A stretch of 64,000 nucleotides of DNA from Thioalkalivibrio sp. XN8 (GTDB lineage: Bacteria; Pseudomonadota; Gammaproteobacteria; Steroidobacterales; XN24), in the NCBI RefSeq assembly GCF_011058255.1, contig NZ_JAALFH010000066.1:124001-188000 (forward strand), in the 5' to 3' direction. How positions within the stretch are numbered: position 1 is the first letter of the stretch; every line of letters starts with the position of its first letter. Of this stretch, positions 25,962 through 63,863 are shown one piece after another. The notes beneath the pieces are model-generated. The model made no database searches and was not told the origin of the DNA. It saw only the letters and a program-made list of their open reading frames with translations. A program made the position numbers and the translations under genes.

Positions 25962-27990
25962 GCTCGGTGCCGGCCCCGCCGCGAGCGCCGTGCCGCGCCC
26001 GCTGGTCATCGGCCTCGCCGGGCAGCCGAACGTCGGCAAGTCCACGGTCTTCAGCATCCTGACCGGGCTCACGGCCGAGGTCGGCAACTGGCCCGGGCGC
26101 ACCATCGAGCGGCGGGAAGGCTCGGCCCGCATCGGCGGGCGCGAGTTTCACGTGGTCGATCTCCCCGGGACCTACAGCCTGACCTCCAACTCGGAGGAGG
26201 AGCGGATCGCGCGCGAGTTCATACTCCGCGAGCGGCCCGACGTCATCATCATGCTGGCGGACGCGGCGGCGCTGGAGCGCAACCTCTACCTGCTCGCCGA
26301 GCTGCTCCTGCTGCCCATCCCCGTAGTGCTGGGCGTCAACATGGTGGATGTCGCGCGGCGCGAGGGCGTGGAGTTCGATGCCCACGTGCTGGAGGCCGCG
26401 CTGGGGCTGCCGGTGGTGCCGATGGTGGCCAGCCGCAACGAGGGCGTTGCCGAGCTGTTGCAGGCTGCGGCGGCGGTGGCCGACGGCCAGCGCGACTATG
26501 CGCCCGACCGGCCCGAGATTGCCGCGGCCCACCGGGAGGTTTACGAGGAGGTCTGTACGCTGGTGGCGGGCGCAGTGCCCGAGGGCGTGCCCGACAGCTG
26601 GGTGGCGCTCAAGCTGCTGGAGGGCGACCGGGAAGTCACGGAGCGCGCCGCTGAATGGCTGGCGCCGGAGCCGCGGGCGCGCGTGCAGGCGCTGCTGCGC
26701 GAGCACGAGGACGCAGTGCTCGACGTGGCCGGCGCGCGTTACGAGTGGATCGGCCGCATGGTGCGCGCCGCGGTGCGGCGGCCGAAGCTCGGCCAGGTCA
26801 GTTTCACCGACCGGTTCGACCGGATCGCCACCCATCCCGGCTGGGGCCTGGCGCTCCTGCTCGGCGTCTTCGCCCTGGTGTTCTGGGTGACCTTCTCGGT
26901 CGCCGGGCCCGTGCAGGGCTGGCTCGAGGAAGGCGTGGTGGCGCGCGTTGCGACAGGGCTCGGCGCCCTGCTGGGCGGCGCGCCGGCCTGGGTCCAGGGG
27001 CTGGTGATCGACGGCCTGCTGGCCGGCGCGGGCATCGTGGTGACCTTCGTGCCGATCCTGTTCGTGTTCTATCTCGCGCTGGGGTTCCTCGAGGACACCG
27101 GCTACCAGAGCCGCATGGCCTACGTGATGGACCGCTTCATGCACGGCATCGGCCTGCACGGCAAGAGCTTCCTGCCGCTTTTCCTCGGCTTCGGCTGCAA
27201 CGTCCCCGCGGTGATGGGGAGCCGGGTGATCGAGTCCCGCCCGGCACGGCTGCTCACCATCATGCTGGCGCCCTTCGTTCCCTGCAGTGCGCGCCTCCTG
27301 GTGCTGGCCTTCCTGGTACCGCTGTTCTTCCCGGCCTTCCCCACGCTGGTTGCCTGGAGCCTGGTGGTCGCCAACCTGCTGGTGCTGGTGCTGATCGGCG
27401 TGCTGCTGGACCGCTTCGTGTTCCGGCGCGAGCGGCTGGCCTTCGTGATGGAGATGCCGCTCTACCACCTGCCGAACCCGCGCACCATCCTGGTCTACGC
27501 GGCCACCAACGTGTGGACCTTCATCAAGCGCGCCGCCACCATCATCGTGGTGGTGTCGATGGTCATCTGGGTGCTGGTGTCGTATCCGGGCGCCGGCGTG
27601 GACGACAGCTACCTCGCCATGTTCGGCCGGTCGCTGGAGCCGGTCGGCAGCCTGCTCGGCCTCGACTGGCGGCTGATCGTCGCCACGCTGTCGTCCTTCG
27701 TGGCCAAGGAGAACTCCATCGCCGCGCTGGGCATCATCTTCGGCAGCGAGGGCGAGAGCCTGGGCCAGACGCTGGCCATGGTCATCACGCCGGCAGCGGC
27801 GCTGTCCTTCCTGGTGGTGAACATGCTCTTCGTGCCCTGTGTGGCGACCGTGGCGGCGATCCGGGCCGAGACCCGGAGCTGGGGCTGGACGTTGGCGAGC
27901 GCCGGCCTGATGCTGGCGTCCGCGCTGCTGTTCGGGCTGCTGGTCTACCGGCTGGCGCTGCTGTTCGGCCTGGGAGGCGCAGGTGCTTAA
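25936..27990 (+). CDS. feoB: Ferrous iron transporter FeoB
   Basis: This 684-residue inner-membrane Fe(II) transporter has an N-terminal G domain. G1 is GQPNVGKST near residue 30, the switch region is NWPGRTIERREG, G3 is DLPGTYSL and G4 is NMVD near 133. The membrane part carries the two Gate motifs, the first with FLGFGCNVPAVMGSR near 415 and a cysteine in FVPCSARLL. It is shorter than E. coli FeoB (773), mainly in the helical spacer and C-terminus. Its TAA lies inside the first codons of the FeoC-like gene. Confidence 0.94.
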   Translation: MSARPQPIELGAGPAASAVPRPLVIGLAGQPNVGKSTVFSILTGLTAEVGNWPGRTIERREGSARIGGREFHVVDLPGTYSLTSNSEEERIAREFILRERPDVIIMLADAAALERNLYLLAELLLLPIPVVLGVNMVDVARREGVEFDAHVLEAALGLPVVPMVASRNEGVAELLQAAAAVADGQRDYAPDRPEIAAAHREVYEEVCTLVAGAVPEGVPDSWVALKLLEGDREVTERAAEWLAPEPRARVQALLREHEDAVLDVAGARYEWIGRMVRAAVRRPKLGQVSFTDRFDRIATHPGWGLALLLGVFALVFWVTFSVAGPVQGWLEEGVVARVATGLGALLGGAPAWVQGLVIDGLLAGAGIVVTFVPILFVFYLALGFLEDTGYQSRMAYVMDRFMHGIGLHGKSFLPLFLGFGCNVPAVMGSRVIESRPARLLTIMLAPFVPCSARLLVLAFLVPLFFPAFPTLVAWSLVVANLLVLVLIGVLLDRFVFRRERLAFVMEMPLYHLPNPRTILVYAATNVWTFIKRAATIIVVVSMVIWVLVSYPGAGVDDSYLAMFGRSLEPVGSLLGLDWRLIVATLSSFVAKENSIAALGIIFGSEGESLGQTLAMVITPAAALSFLVVNMLFVPCVATVAAIRAETRSWGWTLASAGLMLASALLFGLLVYRLALLFGLGGAGA

Positions 27991-43749: not shown

Positions 43750-45111
43750 ATGTCCTGTTTTCGCGCGGCCGGTGCCGGCCGCAGACCCTGGTCGCTACGG
43801 CGGCTGATCCTTGCCCTGCTGCTGGGCGGCGTTGTCATGGCGAGCCCGGCGGTTCGGGCCAGCACGGCGGCCGGCAGCCTCGAACTGCCGGCCGCAGCCG
43901 GGCTGCCCGAGCTGATCGCTCATGCCGAGGCGCACAACCCCGCCCTGGCCGCGGCCCGCCACCGCTGGCAGGCGGCCGCAGCCCGCGTGCCCCAGGCCGA
44001 TGCGCTGCCGGAACCCCAACTGGGTCTCGGGCTGGTGTTCGACCAGGTCGACGCCGACTCCGAGTACATGGGCGAGCGCTACTCCGTCTCCCAGGCGTTG
44101 CCGTGGTTCGGCAAGCGCGGCCTGCGGGCCGACGTCGCGTCCAGCGCGGCCGGCGCGGAGGAACAACGCTACCGGGCGCTCCGGCTCGCGCTCGGCGAGC
44201 GGGTCACCGCAGCCTGGTTCGACTATGCCTGGGCCCGCCAGGCGGTCGCGACGGCCCGTGAGAATCGCGACTTGCTCGTGCGGCTCGAGGGCGTGGCTCG
44301 CGCCATGTACCGCTCCGGCATGGGGAACCAGGCGGACGTCACCCGCGCCCAGGTGGAACTGGGCCGGCTGGACGACCACTTGCGCTCCCTGCTGGATGCC
44401 CTCGGCCCGGCAGCCGCGCGCCTGAACGCCTTGCTCGGCCGGCCCGCGCACGCCCGGCTGCCGGAGCCGCCGGCACCGGCAGCACAGGCAGTCCCGGCGC
44501 TCCCCGAGCGCAGTGACGAGGCCTGGCTGCAGGCGGCGCTGGCCGCCAATCCCGAGCTCGGCGCGGCGCAGCGCGAGATCGAGCGCGAGACCCATGCCGT
44601 GGCGCTGGCGCGCAAGGACTATTACCCGGACATCCGGCTCGGGCTCGAGTACGGGCGCAACAGCGCGGGGCGCCTCGCCGCCATCGACGGCGGCGGCACG
44701 GACATGCTGGTGGGGATGATTTCGGTGAACCTGCCGATCCGGCAGCGCCGTTACGACGCGGCGCTGAGCGAGGCGGAAGCCCGCCTCATGGCCGCCGGGC
44801 GCGATGCGCGGAGCCGGGAGCTGGCGCTGGAGGCCGAGCTCAAGGCGGCGCTGTTCGACTATCGCGACGGCGTGCGCAAGCTGCAGCTCTACGGGGGCAC
44901 GCTGGTGCCGCGGGCGCGGCACGCGCTCGAGGCGACCGAGGCCGCTTACCGGGCCGGCCAGGTGGGCTTCATCGAGCTGGTCGACAGCCAGCGCACCCTG
45001 CTCGAGTTCGAACTGGCGCGGGAACGCGCCGCCGCCGACCGGGCCGCCGCTGCTGCGCGGGTCCGCGCCCTGGCCGGCGAACCCCTCTACCCGATCGCCC
45101 GCGAGGACTGA
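43750..45111 (+). CDS. cusC: Outer-membrane efflux channel (CusC/TolC type)
   Basis: This 453-residue outer-membrane factor has a signal sequence, two repeated long-helix units (from about 50 and 255), and typical segments such as LIAHAEAHNPALAAARH and AEATEAAYRAGQVGFIELVDSQRTLLEFE-like helices (the latter seen as YRAGQVGFIELVDSQR). It forms the exit duct for the RND pump encoded downstream. Its stop is 3 bases before the adaptor ATG. Confidence 0.85.
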   Translation: MSCFRAAGAGRRPWSLRRLILALLLGGVVMASPAVRASTAAGSLELPAAAGLPELIAHAEAHNPALAAARHRWQAAAARVPQADALPEPQLGLGLVFDQVDADSEYMGERYSVSQALPWFGKRGLRADVASSAAGAEEQRYRALRLALGERVTAAWFDYAWARQAVATARENRDLLVRLEGVARAMYRSGMGNQADVTRAQVELGRLDDHLRSLLDALGPAAARLNALLGRPAHARLPEPPAPAAQAVPALPERSDEAWLQAALAANPELGAAQREIERETHAVALARKDYYPDIRLGLEYGRNSAGRLAAIDGGGTDMLVGMISVNLPIRQRRYDAALSEAEARLMAAGRDARSRELALEAELKAALFDYRDGVRKLQLYGGTLVPRARHALEATEAAYRAGQVGFIELVDSQRTLLEFELARERAAADRAAAAARVRALAGEPLYPIARED

Positions 45112-45114
45112 GCC

Positions 45115-46943
45115 ATGCGTGGTCTATCCCCCAGGATTCTTTATCCCCTGCTGGTGCTCGGCGGACTGCTGGGCGGGTACGTCGTGGCCGCGTGGCTGGG
45201 CGGCGAGCCGGGGCCGGCCCCCGGGCACTCGGCGGCGACGGCCGGAGCCGACGCCGCGGAACCCGTGGTCTACACCTGCTCCATGCATCCGCAGGTGCGC
45301 AGCACCGATCCCGATGCCCCGTGCCCGATCTGCGGCATGGACCTGATCCCGGTGCCGACGGACGAGGCCGACGACGCCGCGGGCGGCGACTTGCCGCGAC
45401 TCGCCGTCTCACCGCGCGCGGCCGCCCTGATGCAGGTGGAGGTGCAGCCGGTGATCCGCCAGGCCGCCAGCGTGAGCGTGCCGGTGGTCGGCCTGCTGGA
45501 ATACGACGAAACCCGGCTGCGCACCATTGCGGCCTGGGTCCCCGGCCGGCTCGACTGGCTGCACGTGGACTTCACCGGCGCCGAGGTGGACGCCGGCCAG
45601 CCCATGGCCCGCGTGTTCAGCCCCAGGCTGATTGCCGCGCAGGAGGAGCTGCTGCACGCGATCCGGGCCGCGCGGGAACTCGAGGCGGACGGCATCGGCA
45701 TCGTGCTCGAGGCGACCCAGAGGACGGTCGAGGCCGCGCGCGACCGGTTGCGGCTGCTCGGCCTGGCCGACGCGCAGGTGGCGGAGCTCGAGCGCCGCGG
45801 CACCGTCGAGGACTACGTGACCCTGCCGGCGCCGGTCGGCGGCGTGGTCCTCGAGCGCCTGGTGGCGGTCGGCGACTACGTCGCGACCGGCGAGCCGATC
45901 TATCGCCTGGCCGACCTGTCGCGTTTGTGGGCGCAGCTCGAGGTCTACGAGTCGGACCTGCGCTGGCTGCAGGTCGGACAGGAGGCGCGCTTCACCACGC
46001 AGAGCTATCCCGGCGAGGAGTTCAGCGGCAACATCACTTTTATCGACCCCACGCTCGACCCGCGCAAGCGCACCGCCGCAGTTCGCGTCGAAATCGACAA
46101 CAGCGCCGGCCGCCTGAAACCCGGCATGCTCGTCCGCGGCACGGTCGCCGCGGGCGATCCGGAGCAGGGCGAAGACGCGACGACAGCGCCCTTGCTCGTG
46201 CCGGCGTCCGCGCCCTTGCTCACCGGCAAGCGCGCGGTGGTGTACGTGCAGCAGCCCGCGGCCGACCGCCCGACCTACGAGGCGCGCGACGTGTTGCTCG
46301 GGCCGAAAGCCGGCGACTGGTACGTGGTGCGGTCGGGGCTGAGCGAGGGCGAGCTCGTGGTCGCCAACGGGGCTTTCCGGATCGACGCGGAGCTCCAGCT
46401 CCGCGGGCGCCCGAGCATGATGCAGCCGGAGGGCGGCATGCCGCCCGGGCACGACCACGGCGCGGCGCCCGAGGCGTTCCAACATGACGTGGGCCGGCTG
46501 GTGACCGCGCAGTTCGCGCTGGTCCAGGCGCTGGCCGACGACGACCCGGCCGCGGCCCGCGACGCGGCGCTGGCGGTGGATGCCGTGCTGCACGAGGCGG
46601 ACGCGACGGTGCTGGGAGCGCCGGCGGCGCGGGAGCACTGGAACGAGCTCGCCGCCAGCATGCACCGCGGGCTGGCCGGCGTGGCGCAGGCTGCGGAGCT
46701 GGCGCCGCAGCGCCGGTCCTTCGAGACCTTCAGCGATGCGCTGACCAGCGCCGTGCTGGCCTTCGGCGTGGCGGGCACCGGGCCGGTGTATCGCGCCGTC
46801 TGCCCGATGGTGCAGGGACGCGACGGCTTCTGGCTGCAGGACGAGGAGCAGATCGCCAACCCCTACTATGGCGCCGCGATGCTCCGCTGCGGCTGGGTGG
46901 CCGAGACGCTGGTGCCCGCTGAGGCGGCCGGCGAGAACGGGTC

Positions 46944-46947
<4 letters not shown>
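45115..46947 (+). CDS. cusB: CusB-type adaptor with heavy-metal-binding and DUF3347 domains
   Basis: This 610-residue membrane fusion protein is larger than CusB (about 407). After one N-terminal membrane segment comes a heavy-metal-binding domain with CSMHPQVRSTDPDAPCPICGMDL (given here in two parts: CSMHPQVRS and CPICGMDL) near residues 48-75. The adaptor core follows, with FSPRLIAAQEELLHAIRA and a lipoyl-type LPAPVGGVVLERLVAVGDYV segment. A C-terminal DUF3347-like module (about 460-600) ends in YRAVCPMVQGRDGFWL and NPYYGAAMLRCGW, with probable metal-binding cysteine and methionine. It overlaps cusA by four bases. Confidence 0.87.
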
Positions 46948-50894
<3,947 letters not shown>

Positions 50895-53357: not shown

Positions 53358-53391
53358 CTGCAACATTACTGCAACATTTCCCGCCTAGTAT
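53358..53391 (+). promoter_or_regulatory. Pho-box-like promoter of the TonB operon
   Basis: Two 11-base direct repeats, CTGCAACATTA and CTGCAACATTT, lie head to tail at 53358-53379. After 6 bases comes the -10-like TAGTAT at 53386-53391. No -35 is present, and the repeats take its place as in PhoB-activated promoters. Initiation would be near 53398, about 110 bases before the first gene. Confidence 0.6.
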
Positions 53392-53509
53392 CGCAGCCAC
53401 GCAACGAAACCAGGCAGGCCAGCCCGTCACCGGCGCGGCCTCTCCTGCTTTCGACCTCTAGCCGTCTCCGCGGCGGCGCACCTGCGCCCTCATGACCCCG
53501 GGAGCTGAC

Positions 53510-54298
53510 ATGCGATCTCGAGCCAGTACTTTGAATTCATTCATGCTAGCGGGCGTCTTGCTCGCAGCGTCGACCTGCCCGTCGCTCGTGCTGGGCGCCG
53601 AGGTGGACAGCGTCATCCGCAAGGGGGCCGAGCGCGTGCGCGTCGCCCAGGCCGCCCAGGACCGGGTGGACGACATCGTCGAGTCGACCCGCACGCTCGA
53701 GGACCAGTACCGGACCGCGCTGAAGGAGATTGAAGGCCTGGAGGTCTACAACGGCTTGATGAACACCCAGATCTCCGGCCAGATCAACGAGATCGAGGAA
53801 CTCGGTGCCGCCATCGACCAGGTCACGGTCATCGAGCGCCAGATCACGCCGCTGATGATCCGGATGATCGACGGCCTGGAGCAGTTCATCGCCCTGGACG
53901 TGCCGTTCCTGCTGGAAGAGCGGGAAGAGCGCGTGCGGGGCCTGCACGAGCTGATGGAGCGCGCCGACGTGACCGTCGCCGAAAAATTCCGGCGCGTCAC
54001 CGAGGCCTACCAGATCGAGATGGATTACGGCCGGACGGTGCTGGCCTATGAGGGTACGCTCGAGCTCGACGGCGGCCTGCGCGAGGTGAATTTCCTGCGC
54101 GTCGGCCGGATCGGGCTCTATTACCAGAGTGCCGACGCCGCCCGTACCGGCGTCTGGAACCCCCACGTCGGGCAGTGGCAGGTGCTGGATTCCGCCGCGG
54201 CTCGCAACCAGGTCCGCATGGGAATCAGGGTGGCCAACAAGCAGGTCGCGCCCGACCTGCTGCTGCTGCCCGTCCCCGCCCCGAGGGTTGGCTCATGA
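53510..54298 (+). CDS. DUF3450 periplasmic protein of the TtpC-TonB cluster
   Basis: This 262-residue exported protein has a signal peptide of about 25 residues and then a mainly coiled-coil domain (45-160), ending in a beta-rich portion with LRVGRIGLYYQSAD. It matches DUF3450, the usual first gene of the six-gene TtpC clusters of marine gammaproteobacteria and Vibrio. The family is thought to assist the TonB complex in the periplasm, but its mechanism is not established. The ATG at 53510 has GGGAG 5 bases before it. Its TGA overlaps the ttpC start. Confidence 0.85.
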   Translation: MRSRASTLNSFMLAGVLLAASTCPSLVLGAEVDSVIRKGAERVRVAQAAQDRVDDIVESTRTLEDQYRTALKEIEGLEVYNGLMNTQISGQINEIEELGAAIDQVTVIERQITPLMIRMIDGLEQFIALDVPFLLEEREERVRGLHELMERADVTVAEKFRRVTEAYQIEMDYGRTVLAYEGTLELDGGLREVNFLRVGRIGLYYQSADAARTGVWNPHVGQWQVLDSAAARNQVRMGIRVANKQVAPDLLLLPVPAPRVGS

Positions 54299-55710
54299 AC
54301 CGACTGAAGATCGTGGCCGTCGCGCTCAGCGCCGGCATGCTGGCTGCCCCGGCAGTCGCCCAGGAACAGGCGCCTTCGCTGGCCGAGCTGCTCCAGCGGG
54401 TGGAGCAGGGCCAGGTGCAGGATCGCCGGGAGTTCCAGCAGCGTGAGGCCGAGTTCCGTGCAGCGCAGGCAGACCAGGAGCGGCTGTTGCAGGAGGCGCG
54501 CGCCGAGCGCGGGGCCCTCGAGGCCGAGAGCGAGCGGCTCGAAGGTGAGTACGAGGCCAACGAGGCTCGCGTCGCCGAGCTGGAGGAGGCGCTCAACCGG
54601 CGCCTGGGCTCGCTGAAGGAGCTGTTCGGCGTGCTGCAGCTGGTCTCCAGCGACACCCAGGGCCTGTTCGAGAACTCGATCATCAATATCCAGTACCCTG
54701 ACCGCACCGATTTTCTGCAAGGCTTGACCGCCAAGATGAGTTCGAGTTCGCAGCTGGCCTCGATCGACGATCTCGAGCGGCTGTGGTTCGAGCTGCAACG
54801 CGAGATGACCGAACAGGGCCGGGTGCTGCGCTTCCCCACCGAGATCTTCGCGCTCGACGGCACCCGCGTACAGGAGGAGATCGTCCGGGTCGGCGCCTTC
54901 AATATCATCGCCGGAGACAAGTTCCTGCAGTTCACGCCCGAGACCGGGAACGTCGCGGTGATGCCGCGCCAGCCGGAGCGGGCCCGCTTCACGCGCTCGG
55001 CCGGTAATTTGTTTGCGGCTGTCGGCGAGGACACGATGGTGCCCTTCGCCGTGGATCCGACACGGGGCCAGATTCTCGGCCTGCTGACCGAGAAGCCCAA
55101 CTTGGTGGAGCGTATCCAGCAGGGCGGCGTGGTCGGCTACGTGATTATCGGCCTGGGCATCCTGGCGCTGCTCCTGGCGGCCGAGCGACTCATTTCGCTG
55201 GGGCTCGCCAGCCGCAAGGTCTCGGCCCAGCTCAATGCTTCCGCCCCCGACAGCGGCAACCCCCTGGGACGGCTGCTGCTGGTCGCGCAGCAGAACGCCG
55301 GGCGCGACACGGAAACCCTGGAGCTCAAGCTCGGCGAGGCGATGCTGCATGAAATGCCGGCGTTGAATCGCGGGGTGCTGTTCCTGAAGATCATCTCGAT
55401 CGTGGCGCCGCTGCTCGGCCTGCTGGGCACGGTGACGGGCATGATCGTCACCTTCCAGGCCATCACGCTGTTCGGCACGGGCGACCCCAAGCTCATGGCC
55501 GGCGGCATTTCCCAGGCGCTGGTAACCACGGTGCTGGGACTCGTGGTGGCGATCCCGGTGGTGTTCCTGCACACGCTGGTGAACGGCCGCGCCCGGCGCA
55601 TCCAGCATATCCTGCAGGAGCAGGCCGCCGGCGTAGTGGCGGAGCGGGCGGAGGAGCTCGGCGGCGACGGCCACGGGCCGGCCATGTCTGCCGTTGCGAT
55701 GCGGGCCTGA
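54295..55710 (+). CDS. ttpC: TtpC-type MotA/TolQ/ExbB proton channel protein
   Basis: This 471-residue protein has a signal sequence (VAVALSAGMLAAPAVAQ), a long coiled coil (about 25-120), and a periplasmic beta domain. A C-terminal MotA/TolQ/ExbB domain (about 280-440) has three helices, with the conserved SIVAPLLGLLGTVTGMI followed by SQALVTTVLGLVVAIPVV. The extended N-terminus distinguishes TtpC from ExbB. In Vibrio, TtpC is a fourth component required by the TonB2 system. It starts in an ATGA overlap with the DUF3450 gene. Confidence 0.87.
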   Translation: MNRLKIVAVALSAGMLAAPAVAQEQAPSLAELLQRVEQGQVQDRREFQQREAEFRAAQADQERLLQEARAERGALEAESERLEGEYEANEARVAELEEALNRRLGSLKELFGVLQLVSSDTQGLFENSIINIQYPDRTDFLQGLTAKMSSSSQLASIDDLERLWFELQREMTEQGRVLRFPTEIFALDGTRVQEEIVRVGAFNIIAGDKFLQFTPETGNVAVMPRQPERARFTRSAGNLFAAVGEDTMVPFAVDPTRGQILGLLTEKPNLVERIQQGGVVGYVIIGLGILALLLAAERLISLGLASRKVSAQLNASAPDSGNPLGRLLLVAQQNAGRDTETLELKLGEAMLHEMPALNRGVLFLKIISIVAPLLGLLGTVTGMIVTFQAITLFGTGDPKLMAGGISQALVTTVLGLVVAIPVVFLHTLVNGRARRIQHILQEQAAGVVAERAEELGGDGHGPAMSAVAMRA

Positions 55711-55729
55711 ATGCGCGGCGGGAACGGTC

Positions 55730-56257
55730 ATGCAGATGCTGTTTGACGGCTACGTTGCGATCCGGGACTTCCTGGAGCTCGGCGGCGACGTGCTGGTCCT
55801 GATTGTGTTCGTGATCTTCGCCATGTGGGTGCTGATCGTCGAGCGGTTCATGTTCTTCAGCCGCCGTCGCCGCGAGATGGAGCGCGCGGTGCGCGAGCGC
55901 TGGGCCGCACGGCCGGAACGGGAGTCCTGGAATGCCCACCAGATCCGGGACGCCCTGGTGTCGCGATTCAAGCTCGAAGCCACGGCGGGCATCCCGATGA
56001 TCAAGACGCTGGTCGCGCTGTGTCCGCTGCTCGGCCTGCTGGGCACGGTCACCGGGATGATCGCGGTGTTCGAAGTCATGGCCGTCTCGGGCACCGGCAA
56101 CGCCCGCTCGATGGCCGCCGGGGTAGCCATGGCGACCGTGCCGACAATGGCCGGGATGGTCGGTGCGCTGTCCGGCGTGTTTGCCGGGACCACACTGGCG
56201 CGCAAGGCGGATCGCTCCGTCGAGAAGCTGCGCGACAGCCTGACGATGGATATCTAG
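55730..56257 (+). CDS. exbB: ExbB-family proton channel subunit
   Basis: This 175-residue protein has three membrane helices with the MotA/TolQ/ExbB core PLLGLLGTVTGMIAVFEV, then the VAMATVPTMAGMVGALSGV helix. It couples the proton gradient to TonB together with ExbD. The start at 55730 or 55736 gives nearly the same protein. An earlier in-frame ATG at 55694 overlaps ttpC and is less likely. Confidence 0.9.
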   Translation: MQMLFDGYVAIRDFLELGGDVLVLIVFVIFAMWVLIVERFMFFSRRRREMERAVRERWAARPERESWNAHQIRDALVSRFKLEATAGIPMIKTLVALCPLLGLLGTVTGMIAVFEVMAVSGTGNARSMAAGVAMATVPTMAGMVGALSGVFAGTTLARKADRSVEKLRDSLTMDI

Positions 56258-56267
56258 GGAGCAACCC

Positions 56268-56684
56268 ATGCGCCAACGCTTTGCCACCTTCGGGCAGGAA
56301 GAGGAGGATCAGGAGATCAACATCACGCCCATGCTGGACGTGGTGTTCATCATGCTGATCTTCTTCATCGTGACCGCTTCCTTTGTCAAGGAAGCGGGGA
56401 TCGACGTCAACAAGCCCGAGGCAGCTACCTCGGAGCCCAAGGACAAGGCGAACATCCTCATCGCCATCGACGCCAACGACAAGATCTGGATCGACCGTCG
56501 CCAGGTCGATGCGCGCGCGGTGCGCGCCAATATCGAGCGGCTGCACGCGGAGAACCCGCAGGGCACGGTGGTTATCCAGGCGGACAAGGACTCGAGAACG
56601 GAAGTGCTGCTCGGCGTGATGGACTCCGCGCGCATGGCCGGAGTCTATGACGTGGCGATCGCGGCACCGAGGATCGGGGACTAG
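56268..56684 (+). CDS. exbD: ExbD-family transport protein
   Basis: This 138-residue protein has a short cytoplasmic N-terminus, one membrane helix with the proton-path aspartate (INITPMLDVVFIMLIFFIV), and a periplasmic domain with DANDKIWIDRRQVD and GTVVIQADKDS. A GGGAGC ribosome site precedes the ATG. The order exbB then exbD then tonB is that of TonB2 clusters. Confidence 0.92.
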   Translation: MRQRFATFGQEEEDQEINITPMLDVVFIMLIFFIVTASFVKEAGIDVNKPEAATSEPKDKANILIAIDANDKIWIDRRQVDARAVRANIERLHAENPQGTVVIQADKDSRTEVLLGVMDSARMAGVYDVAIAAPRIGD

Positions 56685-56690
56685 CCGCAG

Positions 56691-57296
56691 ATGCTCGGAC
56701 GCTATGCCATTGCCGTCCCGGCCGGGCTCCTGGTCACGCTGCTGCTGGTCATCGCCATGCAGGCGCTGATCGCCATGGGCAACCGGGAGCTGGATGAATC
56801 CCAGACGCGTCACTTCGTCGACTTCGTCCAGGCGCAGCGGGAGGAAGTCGTGGAGCGGAAGGACCGCAAGCCGGAAAAGCCGCCGGAGCCTTCCGAGCCG
56901 CCGCCGGACCAGCCGCAGCCGCGCACCGACAGCATCGACCCCGTGGCCGACAGCATCAGCATTGCGGCCGCGCCGGTGTCTACCGACGTGCAGCTCGGCG
57001 GCATTGGCCTCGGCGGCGGCGACGGCGACTACCTGCCGATCGTCAAGGTGGCGCCGGTGTACCCCCAGCGAGCTTTGGCGCGCGGCATCGAGGGGTACGT
57101 GGTCGTGGAGTTCACAGTGACCCGGGCCGGCACCGTGACCGATGTCAGTGTCCTGGAGGCCGAGCCGCCAGGCATGTTCGAGGAAGCGGCGCGTAACGCG
57201 GCCCTCAAGTTCAAGTACAAGCCCCGCGTCGTCGACGGCGAGGCTATCGAGGTCCATGGCGTGCAGAACCGCATCACCTTCCAGCTGGAGCGTTGA
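56691..57296 (+). CDS. tonB: TonB energy transducer
   Basis: This 201-residue protein has an N-terminal membrane anchor (VPAGLLVTLLLVIAMQALIAM), a charged and proline-rich spacer (EKPPEPSEPPPDQPQP), and the C-terminal TonB domain (YPQRALARGIEGYVVVEFTV, FKYKPRVVDGEAIEV). It is short, like Vibrio TonB2. It transfers energy to an outer-membrane receptor; the receptor encoded 1.5 kb downstream is the obvious client. The TPR gene ATG follows its stop by 2 bases. Confidence 0.92.
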   Translation: MLGRYAIAVPAGLLVTLLLVIAMQALIAMGNRELDESQTRHFVDFVQAQREEVVERKDRKPEKPPEPSEPPPDQPQPRTDSIDPVADSISIAAAPVSTDVQLGGIGLGGGDGDYLPIVKVAPVYPQRALARGIEGYVVVEFTVTRAGTVTDVSVLEAEPPGMFEEAARNAALKFKYKPRVVDGEAIEVHGVQNRITFQLER

Positions 57297-57298
57297 GC

Positions 57299-58597
57299 AT
57301 GAGTAACCGCGGCACTCGCAGCAACCTTCCTGCCCTGGCCGTTGCCCTGCTGCTCGCGGCCGGCGCGGCCGGCGCGGGCGGCATGGCTCTCTGGCCCGAA
57401 GCGGCCGCGGCGCAGGCGCAGCAAACCCGCAAGACCCCGGCCATGCGCGAGAGCGTCTTCCGTGAATTGAGCCAGGCACAGTCGGTGGCCGATACCGGCG
57501 ATATCGCCGAGGCGCTCCGGCTGCTGGATCGCGTCAAGCAACGCGACGACCTCAACAGCTACGAGCTCGCGCAGCTCTACAACTTCTACGCCTTCATCTA
57601 TTACTCGCAGGAGCAGTATGCGAAGAGCATCGAGGCTTATCGCAACCTCCTGTCGCAGCCCGACCTGCCGGAGGCGCTCGAAGTCAGCACCCTCTACGGC
57701 ATAGCACAGCTCAGCCTCGTGACCGAGGACTACGCCGGTGCGGTGGGCTACCTGGAGCGCTGGTTCCGCCTGGTGCCCGACCCGGGTCCCGACGCCTATG
57801 TGCTGTTGTCCCAGGCCTACTACCAGCAAGGCCAGGTCGAGAAGGCCCTGGTGCCGATTGAGAACGCCATGCGCCTTGCCCGCGAACAGGGCACGGCCGC
57901 GAAGGAGAACTGGCTGTTGCTGGCGCGGGCGCTGAATTTCGAGCTGGAGCGCTACGGCCAGGTCGTGGACGTGCTCGAACAGCTGTTGACGGATTATCCG
58001 CGCCAGGAGTACTGGGTGCAGCTTGCTGCGATGTACGGCGAGACCGGGCGCGAGCGGGAGCAGCTGGTGGCGTACGAGATTGCCTACGAGCAGGGCTACC
58101 TGGACAAGGACCGCGAGCTCGTGCTGCTGGCGCAGCTGTACCTGCAGCAGGACGTCCCCTACAAGGCTGCCCGCGTCCTGGAGGACGGCATGGCGAAGGG
58201 CGCGGTGGAGCGTTCGGCCCGCAACCTCCGCCTGCTGTCCCAGGCCTGGACGCTGGCGATGAACAACGAAGAGGCCATTGCGGCGCTGCAGGAGGCCGCC
58301 AGCCTGTCAGGCGACCCCGAGCTGTACCTGCGGCTGGCGCAGCAGTACGCCGGCCTGTCCCGCTGGGAGGATGCGCTCGGGGCGGCGCGTACCGCGCTCG
58401 ATCGAGGCATCGATGACCGCGCCGACGCGCACCTCATGGTCGGCATGGCGCTCTACAACGTGGGCCGGCTGGACGAAGCCGTCGGCAACTTCCGCCAGGC
58501 CGCGGCGGACGAGCGCCTGGCCGTTACTGCGCGCCAGTGGATCGACTACATCGGCAAGGAAAAGGAGCGGCGCGAGCAGATCGCGCAGGCCGGCTGA
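57299..58597 (+). CDS. TPR-repeat exported protein of the TonB cluster
   Basis: This 432-residue protein has a signal sequence (ALAVALLLAAGAAGAGGMALWP) and about nine tetratricopeptide-like repeats through the mature region. Examples are FAVAL-type helix pairs such as LAQLYNFYAFIYYSQEQYAKS and AVLLSQAYYQQGQVEKAL-like units (seen as LLSQAYYQQGQVEKAL). A TPR protein is the regular last gene of TtpC clusters and is thought to bind complex components in the periplasm. A gap of 187 bases with a second Pho-like element follows it. Confidence 0.85.
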   Translation: MSNRGTRSNLPALAVALLLAAGAAGAGGMALWPEAAAAQAQQTRKTPAMRESVFRELSQAQSVADTGDIAEALRLLDRVKQRDDLNSYELAQLYNFYAFIYYSQEQYAKSIEAYRNLLSQPDLPEALEVSTLYGIAQLSLVTEDYAGAVGYLERWFRLVPDPGPDAYVLLSQAYYQQGQVEKALVPIENAMRLAREQGTAAKENWLLLARALNFELERYGQVVDVLEQLLTDYPRQEYWVQLAAMYGETGREREQLVAYEIAYEQGYLDKDRELVLLAQLYLQQDVPYKAARVLEDGMAKGAVERSARNLRLLSQAWTLAMNNEEAIAALQEAASLSGDPELYLRLAQQYAGLSRWEDALGAARTALDRGIDDRADAHLMVGMALYNVGRLDEAVGNFRQAAADERLAVTARQWIDYIGKEKERREQIAQAG

Positions 58598-58648
58598 GCG
58601 TCCCCGGTCCCGGCCACTGCAGAGGTGATCCTGAAATTCCTCGGCGCG

Positions 58649-58682
58649 CCGTAACGTCGCTGTAATGTTACAGCCCTAGACT
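58649..58682 (+). promoter_or_regulatory. Pho-box-like promoter of the receptor/lipoprotein unit
   Basis: CCGTAACGTCG (58649-58659) and CTGTAATGTTA (58660-58670) are adjacent 11-base repeats, followed after 6 bases by TAGACT (58677-58682). Spacing is identical to the element at 53358-53391, and most bases agree when the two are aligned in the same direction. Predicted initiation is near 58689, about 95 bases before the receptor ATG. Confidence 0.55.
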
Positions 58683-58784: not shown

Positions 58785-61700
58785 ATGCGCTTACTGGCAG
58801 CAGTCTGGCTCTTCGCGCTCTCGAGCATGGCCTTGGCGGTCGAGTACGGCCCCGGCGACGTCACCGTGTTCGTGTTCGATCGCGGCGTGCCGGCAGAGGG
58901 CCTGGCCGTCGTGCTGGACGAGATGGAGCTCGGCCGGACGGATGCCTCGGGCGCCGTCGATTTCGCCGTGGCGGCGGGCGCCCACGAGCTGCTGCTGCGC
59001 CGTGGTACCAACGTGGTTGCTACAGTTCCCTTCAGCCTCGCCGAGGGCCGGTCGGCCGAGATCTCGGTGACGCTGATGGGTCTTGGCCGCGAGCCCCGCC
59101 TCCAGGTCCGCCAGTTCAGCGGCGGCGAAGGCCGGGCGACCGTCGGCGGCACCGTGTACGACCCCTTCGGCGAGCCGCTCGCCGACGCCACGGTCAGCGC
59201 CCCGGCAGTTGGCGTCGAGGTGCGCACGGCGGCCGACGGCACCTTCAGCATGGATCTCCCGCGCGGCGAATTCGAGCTCGTCGTCGCCCATCCGGACTTT
59301 GCCACCATGAATCTCCGCGAGGTCCGCGCCCTGGCCAGCCTCGGCGCCTCGCTCGACCTGGTGATGCGTCCCGCCGCTGCGGCGGGCGCGAGCGGCGTTA
59401 TCGAGGAGGTGGTGGTGACCGGCCGCTACATCCCGGACACCTCCATGGCCAATGAGCGCACCGCCCAGTCGGTGCTCGACGTGATCACGGCGAAGGAGAT
59501 CGCGATCGCCGGCGACTCGACCGCAGCCGGGGCCCTGCAGCGCGTAACGGGCGTGACCGTGCAGCGCGACCTGCCGGTGGTCCGCGGGCTCAACGACCGC
59601 TTTTCCACGACCCTGCTCAATGGCGCCGAGATTCCCAGCCCGGATCCCTCGCGTCGCGCCATCGGCCTCGACATCTTCCCTACCGACCTGATCGGCGGGA
59701 TTACCGTCCAGAAGACCTTCTCCCCCGATTTGCCCGCCGACTTCTCGGCCGGCGTGATCCGCCTCCAGACGCGCGGCATTCCAGATGAGACCGAAGGCAG
59801 CATCTCCGCCTCGACGGGCTACAACACCCGTTCCACCGGGGAGCGCGGCCTCATCTACCAGGGCAGCGACACCGACCGCTGGGGCTACGACGACGGTGCA
59901 CGCGACCTGCCCGACACCGCCGCGCGGCTGACCAACAACGGGCGGCTGCCGCTGAACCAGCTTTCGGCAGCGGACAACGAGGCCGTCGCCGAGTCGCTGC
60001 CGAATAACTACAACATCATGGGTTCCGAGCTGGACCCGGACTTCGGTTTCGCCGGTACCTTGGGCGGCCGCACCACCCTGGGCGACACGCCGGTGGGCGC
60101 GATCCTCGCGCTGCAGTACGACAACAGCTGGCGGTTCCGCCGCGAGGACCGCGCTGATTTCACCACGGTCACCAGCACCGGGCTGTTCGGCGACACCTCG
60201 GAACTGCAGCGCACCGAGAACACGGTGGCGACCGGCGCGATGCTGACCGCCAGCGCCGAGCTCGACCCCCGCAATACGATCAATTTTCTCTCCCTGCTCT
60301 CGCGCCGCTCGCTCGACGGCACCTACCTGGAGCAGGGCTTCAACACCAGCGACTCGCGTGACTTCCGCAGCGTCACCTTGGAGTGGTCCGAGTCCCAGCT
60401 GCTTTCCAACCAGCTCAGCGGCCGCCATGAAACCTCCTGGCTCGACGGCGTGATCGCGAACTGGCAGGTGTCGTTCTCGGCGGCGGACCGCGAAGAGCCG
60501 GCCACCCGCGAATACACCTATTCGAAACCCGCCGGCTCGGATGAGTTCTTCCGTCTGGCCACCGGGCCCGGCGAAGCTGGCCTGCCGCCGGTCTGGAGCT
60601 GGGAAGACCTCGACGAGGACACGCTCGACGCCGGGTTCAGCTTCGACATCCCCGCCGAGCTGTTCAGCAACTGGAGCGGCGAATGGAAAGTCGGCTTGTC
60701 GGCAACCCAGCGTGACCGCGACTACGAGATCGTGCGCTGGCGCTTTGCGCTGGCCCCCGGCGCCGGCGTGAACGACCCGTTCTTCTTCGAAACCTTCGTC
60801 TTCCCGTCGCCGGAGATGATCCTGATCCCCGAGCGGATCGGTCCGAACGGCTTCCAGCTGGTGAACGCCAGCACGGCCGCCGCCGGGGGCGAGAACGCCG
60901 ACAACTACCAGGGCACGCACGACATCCTCGCCGGCTATTTCATGGGCGATTTCTACATCGGCAGCGACTACCGCCTGCAGGCCGGGTTCCGGGTCGAGTC
61001 CTCCGACCTGACCGTGACGACCAACTCCCTGGTGGCCCAGGGCGCCATCAGCGAAGGTCGCATCGACGAGACTGACATCCTGCCGGCAGTGAACTTCACC
61101 TGGTTCATCGACGACCAGAGTCAGCTGCGCGCAGCGTTGAGCCAGACGTTGAACCGGCCCCAGTTCCGCGAGCTTTCGCCCGCGCCCTATCGCGATCCAG
61201 AGACCCGGTTCGAGGCCGTCGGCAACCCCAACCTCGACCAGGCGGAGATCCTCAACCTCGATCTGCGCTACGAGCGCTACTGGTCGAATGACGAGGGCTT
61301 TACGGTCGCGGCCTTCTACAAGGACTTTACGGATCCCATCGAGGTCGTGACCATCGGCGGCGGGTCGGACGACCGCGGGGTGCGCTCCTTCGCCAACGCC
61401 GACAGCGCCACGCTCTACGGCCTCGAGCTGGACGGACGCTACAGCATGGCGAGCATGTTCGAGGCCACCCCGATCGTCTCCAATATGTACCTGGCGGCCA
61501 ACTTCGCCTGGATCGACTCGGAGGTCACGGTCGGCGTCAGCGACATCGGCGTGGCGACCAACGCCGAGCGGCGCCTCCAGGGCCAGTCCCCCTGGGTTGC
61601 CAACCTGACCCTGGGCTACAGCAATCCTGAGCGCGAGATCGACGCGGCGCTGCTGCTGAACGCGTTCGGCGAGCGCATCACGGAGGCCGGCGTCAACGGC

Positions 61701-61895
61701 GTCGAGGACGCCAAGGAGCAGACCGCGCCGCAGCTCGACTTCAACTACACCCAGGCGCTGTTCGATAACTGGGTGCTCGGGCTGAAGGCCCGCAACCTCC
61801 TCGACAGCAGGATCGAGGTGGAGCAGGGCGACTTCATCCAGCGGAGCTACCGCACCGGCAGGACCTACTCAGCTTCGCTCAAGTACCGCTTTTGA
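58785..61895 (+). CDS. TonB-dependent outer-membrane receptor with N-terminal regulatory-like domains
   Basis: This 1036-residue receptor has a signal peptide (LFALSSMALAVEYG) and two tandem carboxypeptidase-regulatory-like beta domains (about 25-105 and 118-190; the second has GGTVYDPFGEPLADATVS). A TonB-box-like segment EEVVVTGRY near 205 and the plug domain (VTGVTVQRDLPVVRGLNDR) follow. The 22-strand barrel region ends in a terminal phenylalanine (SASLKYRF). Such receptors import large or scarce nutrients. Its barrel has no close named substrate that I can recognise. A GGAG ribosome site lies 11 bases before the ATG, and the beta-helix lipoprotein gene follows after 72 bases. Confidence 0.9.
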   Translation: MRLLAAVWLFALSSMALAVEYGPGDVTVFVFDRGVPAEGLAVVLDEMELGRTDASGAVDFAVAAGAHELLLRRGTNVVATVPFSLAEGRSAEISVTLMGLGREPRLQVRQFSGGEGRATVGGTVYDPFGEPLADATVSAPAVGVEVRTAADGTFSMDLPRGEFELVVAHPDFATMNLREVRALASLGASLDLVMRPAAAAGASGVIEEVVVTGRYIPDTSMANERTAQSVLDVITAKEIAIAGDSTAAGALQRVTGVTVQRDLPVVRGLNDRFSTTLLNGAEIPSPDPSRRAIGLDIFPTDLIGGITVQKTFSPDLPADFSAGVIRLQTRGIPDETEGSISASTGYNTRSTGERGLIYQGSDTDRWGYDDGARDLPDTAARLTNNGRLPLNQLSAADNEAVAESLPNNYNIMGSELDPDFGFAGTLGGRTTLGDTPVGAILALQYDNSWRFRREDRADFTTVTSTGLFGDTSELQRTENTVATGAMLTASAELDPRNTINFLSLLSRRSLDGTYLEQGFNTSDSRDFRSVTLEWSESQLLSNQLSGRHETSWLDGVIANWQVSFSAADREEPATREYTYSKPAGSDEFFRLATGPGEAGLPPVWSWEDLDEDTLDAGFSFDIPAELFSNWSGEWKVGLSATQRDRDYEIVRWRFALAPGAGVNDPFFFETFVFPSPEMILIPERIGPNGFQLVNASTAAAGGENADNYQGTHDILAGYFMGDFYIGSDYRLQAGFRVESSDLTVTTNSLVAQGAISEGRIDETDILPAVNFTWFIDDQSQLRAALSQTLNRPQFRELSPAPYRDPETRFEAVGNPNLDQAEILNLDLRYERYWSNDEGFTVAAFYKDFTDPIEVVTIGGGSDDRGVRSFANADSATLYGLELDGRYSMASMFEATPIVSNMYLAANFAWIDSEVTVGVSDIGVATNAERRLQGQSPWVANLTLGYSNPEREIDAALLLNAFGERITEAGVNGVEDAKEQTAPQLDFNYTQALFDNWVLGLKARNLLDSRIEVEQGDFIQRSYRTGRTYSASLKYRF

Positions 61896-61967: not shown

Positions 61968-63863
61968 ATGTTTTCCAAGAAGACTGCCTTTATCGCTGTC
62001 ATTGCCGGTGCGGCGTTCATCGCCGGCTGCGATAGCGACGACGGGTCCGATTTCGGCCCCGGGTCCCCGTCCATCGTGATCAACCAGCCCCCGGTGACGG
62101 TGGTTATCAATAACACCGGCGGCGGTGGCGGCCCGGTCGATCCGGGCGATCCGGACGACGACACTGTCGGCGGCCAGCCGGCCGGCCCGTGCCGCGTCGA
62201 CAACCCGAACGACCCGATTCCCGACGGCGCCCTGCTCGGCTGCGTGGCCTCGGATGATGGCGCCAGTGACACCGGCGCGACCCCGGCGCCCGACGCCATC
62301 GTGAACGACCCCTGGGCACTCAGCGATTTCTTCGCCGGCATCAGTGCCGCGCCCGCGCTGAACAACACCGAAGACGTGCGTGGCGCCATCGACAGCACCG
62401 GCATGCCGATCGGCTCGCCGGCGCGCTTGTCGGCCAGCTTCTCGGCGCCCGCCGAGTGGCCCCCGGCCTCCGCGACGGACGCGACCTCGCTGCCGGTGCC
62501 GAGCTATATCGGCAACACCAGCTACATCGGCGCGTTCCCCCCGGGGGTCACTCGCGACCAGCAGTGGACAGCCGACTGGACCATCCGGGTCAACGGCAAC
62601 GATGCCGTATGGGGCTTCGCGGGCGGCGAGCCGGGCACTGCGCTCGCCGGTAACACCTCGGCGCCGGTGGCCGACGGCAACTGCCCGGCCGGCACCACCC
62701 TGGCCGGCACCTTCTCGGACCTCGTCGGCGCGCTGGCGGACGACGAGGCCGAGCTGTTCACTGGCAGCGCCGCCACCGGCGACTACGACGTCTGCACGCT
62801 GGCGGTGCGCTATGACACCGACGGCGCCACGATTACGCTGACCAACGACAACGTCTACAACATCGCTGACGGCTTCCCGGGCACCAAGGTCGGCCTTGGC
62901 GACGATGCCGATCCGGCCAACGACGTGGACGTGACCCTGGTCATCGAGGCCGGGACACTGATCTACGGCGAGCCGCAGGAAGCCCTGGTCGTGACCCGCG
63001 GCGCCACCATCGAGGTCAACGGCACGCAGAGCGCGCCGGTGGTCATGACGTCGCTGGAGCAGCTGAGCGGCCGCTTCGACGGCGACCCCAGCACCAACGT
63101 CGACGGCAGCCAGCAGGGCGAGTGGGCCGGCTTCGCGCTGATGGGCCGCGCCCGCAGCAACCAGTGCGGCGCCAGCTTCGCGGACTGCAACGTGCTGGCC
63201 GAGGGCGGCATCGGCAACTATGGCGGCGACGTCGACGACGACTCGTCGGGCAACGTCAACTACCTGATCATCCGCCATGCCGGCAACGACCTCGACGGCC
63301 AGGGCAACGAGCTCAACGGCTTCACCCTGTTCGGCGTCGGCCGCAACACCGAGATCCAGAACGTCCAGATCCACCGCGGCTTCGATGACGGCATCGAGTT
63401 CTTCGGTGGCGGCGCGTTCGTGCGCTACCTGGTGCTGACGGGCAACGGCGACGACAGCCTCGACTACGATTCGGGCTGGACCGGCGGTGCCCAGAACGTC
63501 CTGATCATCCAGGAGGGCGCGCCGCGCGGCAACAACGGCATCGAGGCCGATTCCCGCTTCGCACTGGAGCCGATCACCTTCGAGCTCCTCGCCAACGTGA
63601 CCATCCTGGGTCCCGTGAGCCGCGCCTCGAACAACCCGGCTGCCGGGGACGAGGGCATTCGCTTCCGCGAGGGCAAGCGCGGCCAGGTGCACAACACGAT
63701 CGTCTCCGGCGATTACAGCGGTTGCATCAACTTCAATGACGTGGAAACCTTCGACCGCGCGGCGGAAGAGGGCGGCACGCCGCCGGATGCGCCGGGCCCG
63801 CACCTGGTGTTCCGCAACACCATCGTGGATTGCGTCGGCGGTCCCAACTACAAGCAGGAGTGA
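61968..63863 (+). CDS. Acidic beta-helix lipoprotein paired with the TonB receptor
   Basis: This 631-residue protein has a lipoprotein signal (AGAAFIAGCDSDDGSD, cysteine at residue 20). A low-complexity Gly/Asp/Pro linker follows (to about residue 85), then an N-terminal globular region. The C-terminal half looks like a right-handed beta helix: LVIEAGTLIYGEPQEALVV, ALMGRARSNQC, NVQIHRGFDDGIEFFGGG and LTGNGDDSLDYDSGWTGGAQ. Aspartate at +2 would mean inner-membrane retention under the E. coli Lol rule. The strongly acidic start could instead mark surface export. The ATG at 61968 has GGAGG 10 bases before it; the upstream in-frame ATG is rejected. It probably binds or processes the receptor's substrate. 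Confidence 0.75.
   Translation: MFSKKTAFIAVIAGAAFIAGCDSDDGSDFGPGSPSIVINQPPVTVVINNTGGGGGPVDPGDPDDDTVGGQPAGPCRVDNPNDPIPDGALLGCVASDDGASDTGATPAPDAIVNDPWALSDFFAGISAAPALNNTEDVRGAIDSTGMPIGSPARLSASFSAPAEWPPASATDATSLPVPSYIGNTSYIGAFPPGVTRDQQWTADWTIRVNGNDAVWGFAGGEPGTALAGNTSAPVADGNCPAGTTLAGTFSDLVGALADDEAELFTGSAATGDYDVCTLAVRYDTDGATITLTNDNVYNIADGFPGTKVGLGDDADPANDVDVTLVIEAGTLIYGEPQEALVVTRGATIEVNGTQSAPVVMTSLEQLSGRFDGDPSTNVDGSQQGEWAGFALMGRARSNQCGASFADCNVLAEGGIGNYGGDVDDDSSGNVNYLIIRHAGNDLDGQGNELNGFTLFGVGRNTEIQNVQIHRGFDDGIEFFGGGAFVRYLVLTGNGDDSLDYDSGWTGGAQNVLIIQEGAPRGNNGIEADSRFALEPITFELLANVTILGPVSRASNNPAAGDEGIRFREGKRGQVHNTIVSGDYSGCINFNDVETFDRAAEEGGTPPDAPGPHLVFRNTIVDCVGGPNYKQE

Follow-up and report, generated by a model that had tools for sequence, protein, structure and literature searches.

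The window analysed here is a 64,000-nucleotide stretch of the genome of Thioalkalivibrio sp. XN8 (contig NZ_JAALFH010000066.1, positions 124,001 to 188,000, forward strand), in which a six-gene TonB operon is followed by the genes of a TonB-dependent receptor and a lipoprotein. Two promoter elements, site 1 (53358-53391) and site 2 (58649-58682), lie about 100 bases upstream of the operon and about 100 bases upstream of the receptor gene, respectively. The original prediction, made from the letters of the window alone, regarded them as Pho-box-like promoters of a TonB operon and a receptor/lipoprotein pair, and domain matches gave the gene content that it claimed. The features are as follows.

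53358..53379, + strand: candidate Pho box 1 (two 11-base direct repeats), upstream of the TonB operon; found by pattern, 35.6 bits by matrix
53386..53391, + strand: -10 hexamer TAGTAT, 6 bases past box 1, without a -35; spacing as in the pstS promoters of relatives
53492..54298, + strand: DUF3450 protein, TtpB-like, first gene of the operon (PF11932, 273 bits; alternative ATG at 53510)
54295..55710, + strand: TtpC-like protein with MotA/TolQ/ExbB domain
55730..56257, + strand: ExbB
56268..56684, + strand: ExbD
56691..57296, + strand: TonB
57299..58597, + strand: TPR protein, TtpD-like, last gene of the operon
58649..58670, + strand: candidate Pho box 2, upstream of the receptor gene; 15.9 bits by matrix, 20.2 bits for its counterpart in a second species of the genus (G002)
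58677..58682, + strand: -10 hexamer TAGACT, 6 bases past box 2, without a -35; CCCTAGACTGC is also present at the G002 receptor promoter
58785..61895, + strand: TonB-dependent receptor of 1036 aa, with carboxypeptidase-regulatory domain, plug and barrel
61968..63863, + strand: ElpS-like lipoprotein, C-terminal part predicted to be strand-rich (beta-helix-like); start taken from the signal peptide

The operon is of the TonB2 type, with all six genes in the order TtpB-TtpC-ExbB-ExbD-TonB-TtpD. The lipoprotein has no Pfam or NCBIfam match, and its likely start at 61968 was read from the sequence, where a signal peptide with a lipobox-like AGC is found.

Architecture of the two promoter elements

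Site 1 reads CTGCAACATTA CTGCAACATTT CCCGCC TAGTAT, and its 11-base halves are identical at 10 of 11 positions. Site 2 reads CCGTAACGTCG CTGTAATGTTA CAGCCC TAGACT, with 7 of 11 positions identical between the halves. Aligned in register, the two sites agree at 20 of 34 positions, against a maximum of 13 identities when the register was shifted on either strand by at most 6 bases in one direction or the other. GYAAYRT is present in every half of both sites, and CCTAG covers the start of the -10 at both. No -35 was found at either site, as the hexamers at spacings of 16-18 share only 0-2 of 6 bases with TTGACA. The sequence comparison therefore bears out the shared design that had been described (repeats, 6-base gap, a -10 starting with TAG, no -35) as well as the agreement at most positions, including GYAAYRT and CCTAG.

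A 20-base pattern, CTGYAAYRTNNCTGYAAYRT, had four matches in the window with at most 3 mismatches, where 0.29 were expected, and none of 100 shuffles gave as many. Two of these four overlap on opposite strands at site 2, and one, with 3 mismatches, lies at 26444. As the pattern was derived from the sites themselves, a scan of the genome and a matrix built from the pstS promoters of other genomes are the stronger tests.

Pho-type sites in the genome and in its relatives

The whole genome (3.11 Mb, 70% GC; G000) was scanned with CTGYAAYRTNNCTGYAAYRT, made from sites 1 and 2 alone, at no more than 2 mismatches. Nine rows were obtained. As some overlap, they mark six places, with two rows at site 2, three at phoB (C27:53974-54004) and one each at site 1, pstS (C27:48438), C33:475259 and C33:519485. 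The reversed pattern had one match. Contig C27 carries phoU, pstB, pstS, phoR and phoB. The PhoB, PhoR, PhoU and PstB proteins exceeded the curated NCBI cut-offs (PhoB, TIGR02154, 354.8 bits against 296.2; PhoR, TIGR02966, 398.5 against 334.2), and PstS matched its subfamily model below the cut-off. The pstS promoter, CTGCAGCATTT CTGTAACATCC CGGCCG TACACT, has the same layout of a 22-base box, 6 bases and a -10. Such a scan had been set beforehand as the test on which the original prediction could fail; matches were found directly upstream of pstS and phoB, and the reading was not refuted.

The matrix was built from the pstS promoters of 22 relatives. There were 27 pstS rows at the start, from which that of the present genome (L073) was deliberately excluded and L096-L099 were dropped because of an unclear box, N runs or a distant pstS. 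The 22 sites were chosen with a consensus written after the window sites and some pstS upstream regions had been viewed, which makes the similarity of the box in these promoters circular in part; neither the -10 nor its spacing entered that consensus, and the genome scan described above is likewise free of this circularity. In the 22 promoters the -10 lies at the same distance from the box, with A in second place in all and T in first place in at least 90% of them. Their majority consensus is CTGnAATAATTCnGTAACAAT. The fit of the window sites to the Escherichia coli half-site CTGTCAT is partial, as the original prediction had conceded, and this consensus answers that point.

By this matrix, site 1 (35.6 bits) and site 2 (15.9 bits) rank first and second in the window, the third-best place having 11.5 bits. 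The maximum in 30 simulated windows was 14.6 bits, and the mean of their maxima was 6.3. Among the promoters of the same genome, pstS scored 28.7 bits and phoB about 11.5.

The search also covered two other species of the genus. In G002 all eight genes recur in unchanged order, and sites precede the operon (40.2 bits), the receptor gene (20.2) and the lipoprotein gene (20.3); CCCTAGACTGC at the -10 is common to the receptor promoters of both genomes. No receptor match was found in G001, whose sole DUF3450 match is of a more distant kind. A second pattern, made from the pstS consensus of relatives and allowed 3 mismatches, matched only pstS, the TonB operon, a low-molecular-weight phosphatase gene and phoB in G000; in G002 it matched three places, of which one heads a pst-like cluster and another belongs to the TonB operon. 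The reversed form had no match in either genome.

At the level of the order, 30 DUF3450 operons were tested. The box was found in G000 and G002, and the other 28 scored no more than 2.4 bits (the upstream sequence being shorter than 180 bases in two of them). These 28 operons were called unlinked to the receptor from the coordinates of matches, and contig ends may hide a linkage. No receptor match was found on the same contig except weakly related ones at about 8 kb (G014, G027) and about 90 kb (G018), and no receptor, lipoprotein, pho or pst gene was seen within about 1.5 kb in the 28 short operon loci. Receptor promoters were tested in 16 of 30 loci (L028 and L030-L042 were left out), and six scored better than all of 200 shuffles, namely those of G000, G002, G020, G011, G027 and G014, of which the last two are near-copies. 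Two members of family f12, G017 and G053 (L106:9219-17218 and L107), have the receptor and a tandem lipoprotein followed directly by phoB and phoR. The PhoB of G017 passes the family cut-off, and that of G053 was named without a family test. No match to the PstS of G000 was found in these two genomes.

Several other places carry Pho-type sites. In G000, a 28.9-bit site at C25:143893 (L118, 3887-3920) lies upstream of the above phosphatase gene, a low-molecular-weight phosphatase/arsenate-reductase-like gene (Pfam LMWPc; L118:3357-3848, - strand), which would be sensible if Pst admits arsenate too under phosphate starvation. A 23-bit site at C33:475259 (L011, 9246-9279) lies upstream of a pyruvate-kinase gene (L011:7722-9239, - strand) divergent from an FMN-reductase gene, a possible additional member of the regulon. 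A second TonB-dependent receptor gene on C41 (L121:3630-6416, + strand) has an 18.2-bit site at 3545, 85 bases upstream of its start. Good-scoring sites at L117:3385 and L119:3718 (28.7 and 29.3 bits) have no clear target gene. The pst-like cluster of G002 (L120:1637-11776, - strand) is long and headed by a 31.5-bit site at 11773; it encodes a PBP-superfamily binding protein and then permease- and ATPase-like frames, contains a 43% PstS match within a 730-residue frame, and differs from the pst operon of G000. Upstream in the window itself, 43750-50894 holds a heavy-metal RND efflux set, which consists of an outer-membrane efflux protein, a CusB-like adaptor with a heavy-metal-binding domain and an AcrB/CusA-type pump.

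The lipoprotein and its loci in other bacteria

The structure of the lipoprotein was modelled from 22 sequences with a mean pLDDT of 64.8. The model is strand-rich and, beyond residue 270 or so, mostly well predicted. The top matches in a fold search, all of them weak and none with E of 0.001 or below, include many polygalacturonases, pectin or alginate enzymes and tailspikes. These weak matches to the predicted fold, most of them to beta-helix enzymes and tailspikes, are in line with the polygalacturonase-like models published for Flavobacterium relatives of ElpS. Solved structures were also searched by sequence, and neither the lipoprotein, nor its profile, nor the receptor had a match.

In four loci (L144, L149, L164, L195), the lipoprotein and receptor genes are followed by type II secretion genes, which were confirmed by Pfam where tested. 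These are four of the six loci with listed neighbours; the linkage is not found in the other two (L163, L177), in L170 or beside the pair in the window. In L170, of Hyphomonas atlantica, secretion genes after the receptor were expected from the situation of H. neptunium in the Caulobacter paper (PMC2996285), and other genes were found there. The arrangement in L144, L149, L164 and L195 is the one published around CC_0170/CC_0171 and ties the present lipoprotein to ElpS by synteny.

When the genome collection was scanned with an alignment of the lipoprotein, 79 loci were obtained; they are the best among 539 confirmed relatives, the rows being mutually related. In 66 of the 79, the receptor is no more than 1.5 kb away from the lipoprotein. 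Fifteen contain phoBR, six contain pst genes and 19 contain either; only 49 of the 79 loci reach a length of 20 kb, so that a lack of linkage in the others says little. A TonB2-type operon is present in 14 loci, or in 15 if one truncated at the end of its contig is counted, and another ExbD/TonB type in nine.

The promoter of the linked DUF3450 gene has a strong box in 8 of these 15 operons (at least 14.6 bits, with none of 300 shuffles as high), as in Alteromonas, Salinimonas, Ningiella, Aestuariibacter and HTCC5015; the box of Alteromonas abrolhosensis is TCGTAATAAAACTGTCACAGAAAACTCCTATCCT. In the other seven, which include Pseudoalteromonas and Colwellia-type loci, the box is weaker, far upstream or missing. 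L138 beats all shuffles, yet its box lies 275 bases upstream and has 11.7 bits; the shuffle p was 0.007 for L132, 0.010-0.030 for L189, L166, L179 and L140, and 0.26 for L134. A strong box in 8 of 15 linked operons against 0 of 28 unlinked order relatives gives a Fisher p of 4e-5, an optimistic value since the rows are related. In Aestuariibacter halophilus the cluster runs on into pstS, which has its own box.

In a tree of DUF3450 and TtpC, the operon of G000 and G002 sorted with those of its own order and away from the linked operons of the Alteromonas type. The window receptor stands with that of Nevskia in the receptor tree; a looser association is with receptors two of which have another TonB type upstream. 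On the plain reading of these predicted relationships, a TonB motor was brought together with this receptor on more than one occasion. The trees were made by a quick method with long branches flagged, and their rooting and sampling give no proof of repeated joining; a single origin of the linkage with later losses is also compatible with them.

Proposed regulation by PhoB and its alternatives

Parts of this system have counterparts in published work. In Caulobacter crescentus, ElpS (CC_0170) and the TonB-dependent receptor CC_0171 are encoded beside type II secretion genes (PMC2996285). ElpS likewise adjoins a TonB-dependent receptor and is made under phosphate starvation, but no TonB operon is described in the available portion of that paper, and the pair in the window has no adjoining secretion genes. 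Various TonB receptors of Caulobacter are reported to be under PhoB control (PMC11208175). The PUSIV of Flavobacterium johnsoniae comprises phoBR, the transporter Fjoh_0545 and the lipoprotein FII (Fjoh_0546), a relative of the Caulobacter lipoprotein with a published polygalacturonase-like model (PMC8115612). It resembles the present case in having a low-phosphate-induced receptor and lipoprotein in a phoBR cluster, but it belongs to the Bacteroidetes and the accessible part of the paper describes no TonB motor genes.

Phosphate control has also been reported for motor genes, as the phdA-pdtB-exbB2D2-tonB4 transcript of Pseudomonas aeruginosa depends on phosphate and PhoB (PMC4971064). Its ExbB, ExbD and TonB genes are likewise controlled through a Pho box, whereas it requires the sigma factor VreI, has a -35/-10 downstream of the box and consists of another gene set. 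The TonB2 and TonB3 operons of Vibrio vulnificus (ttpB-ttpC-exbB-exbD-tonB-ttpD) have the same six genes in the same order, and the TonB3 operon begins with a receptor gene (PMC6957404). They differ in that TonB2 has a Fur site and is induced when iron is limiting, and TonB3 is expressed in human serum; phosphate control is not described for either in the part of the paper at hand. No description of a TonB2-type operon under PhoB appeared among the top-ranked open-access titles and abstract openings, a coverage that leaves subscription journals mostly outside, and the available parts of PMC2536512 and PMC7029141 held nothing bearing on the question. Control by phosphate starvation is already published for receptor/lipoprotein pairs and for an exbBD-tonB set. 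New would be the candidate Pho box on a TonB2-type motor beside such a pair, which recurs in other bacteria and was possibly acquired more than once.

In our view, both elements are very probably PhoB-dependent promoters, in which a 22-base Pho box stands in for the -35, and which would induce the TonB2-type motor and the receptor and lipoprotein for the import of phosphorus compounds. Control of both units by PhoB, as originally proposed, is supported as predicted regulation by the matches at pstS and phoB, by the presence of PhoB and PhoR in the genome and by the sites of G002. Under phosphate starvation, PhoR would phosphorylate PhoB, which would bind the repeats as a tandem dimer and recruit RNA polymerase without a -35. 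PhoB would turn on the six-gene motor (TtpB/DUF3450, TtpC, ExbB, ExbD, TonB, TtpD/TPR) and, together with it, the adjoining outer-membrane receptor and lipoprotein. The motor would power the receptor from the proton gradient. What the receptor imports is most likely a compound that contains phosphorus, and the ElpS-like lipoprotein may help to capture this compound or to make it accessible.

All support for PhoB control comes from sequence: the boxes, their match to the genome's own pstS and phoB and to the pstS of relatives, the fact that a second species retains them, and the repeated linkage to phoBR or pst. From these we infer PhoB binding, induction, dedication of the motor to this receptor and the phosphorus substrate. 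Several points weigh against this interpretation. Site 2 is clearly weaker than site 1 and alone only slightly above the simulated maxima, so that its support comes from its place and conservation; it was also missed by the pstS-consensus pattern at up to 3 mismatches. A calibrated sequence model, R1, matched box 1, C33:591386, C25:143893 and C15:68719 in this genome, and was not used as the main test because it missed site 2 and the sites of pstS and phoB. The expectation of sites before the pst and pho genes held for pstS and phoB but not for the two phoX genes, neither of which has a good site (no more than 5.1 bits by the pstS matrix); a broad regulon including PhoX is therefore unsupported with this matrix. 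Some other places in the genome without a clear target score level with pstS. Among the receptor promoters of the order, 3 of 16 have a weak box (p 0.01-0.035) and 7 of 16 have none. Constitutive expression has been reported for CC_0171, the counterpart receptor of Caulobacter (PMC2996285).

The alternative to be taken most seriously concerns dedication only and is compatible with PhoB regulation. The promoters may be real PhoB promoters and the TonB operon may serve all receptors, being merely raised by phosphate stress and not dedicated to its neighbour. TonB motors usually serve many receptors, and the nearest such operons of order relatives have no box and, judged by coordinates, do not stand beside the best receptor match. 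However, the genome has a second DUF3450 operon (C30, L105) without a good site (best 5.1 bits in 14 kb), and the adjacency of motor and receptor recurs in G002 and, with one type of motor or the other, in the wider loci counted above. We consider a shared motor possible but rather doubtful.

The remaining alternatives deny PhoB its role. Members of the OmpR/PhoB family have a common DNA-binding architecture, and the half-sites deviate from CTGTCAT, so another regulator of this family, or some other repeat-binding regulator, might be proposed. This is unlikely, as the same motif and spacing precede pstS in this genome and in 22 relatives, and the motif also precedes phoB. Iron control, in which Fur would regulate the operon as it does the Vibrio TonB2 system and the repeats would be incidental, has in its favour the gene order, which equals that of the iron-regulated Vibrio operon (PMC6957404). 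But the Fur consensus has no match anywhere in the window even when 3 mismatches are allowed, the best fits in the two promoter regions being 9 of 19 and 11 of 19. The operon is thus TonB2-like in its genes and not in its regulation, and Fur control was rejected as very improbable. We give equally little credence to a chance resemblance of two AT-richer repeats in a genome of 70% GC. The weakness of site 2 and the several good-scoring sites without an obvious target would fit it, whereas the shuffle and simulation controls, the co-matches at pstS and phoB across the genome and the retention in G002 argue against it.

TonB motors are known chiefly for the uptake of iron, B12 and glycans. A motor operon with its own candidate Pho box, beside a pair that lies near phoBR or pst in relatives, suggests that active outer-membrane import is part of the phosphate-starvation response, where it would stand besides porins and secreted phosphatases. 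Alteromonas, Salinimonas, Ningiella and Aestuariibacter, culturable genera in which this locus also occurs and carries a strong box, are suited to a study of the receptor substrate and of the role of ElpS. We further propose, as a tentative reading of the sequences that we find attractive but do not lean on, that in Proteobacteria an outer-membrane transporter for scavenging phosphorus, made of this receptor with an ElpS-like lipoprotein, has acquired a TonB motor of its own on repeated occasions and brought it under PhoB control: once each in the G000/G002 line and in the Alteromonas line (both TonB2-type), and in other lines with different ExbB/ExbD/TonB sets. If this is true, uptake of a bulky phosphorus compound would limit growth often enough for dedicated power at the outer membrane.

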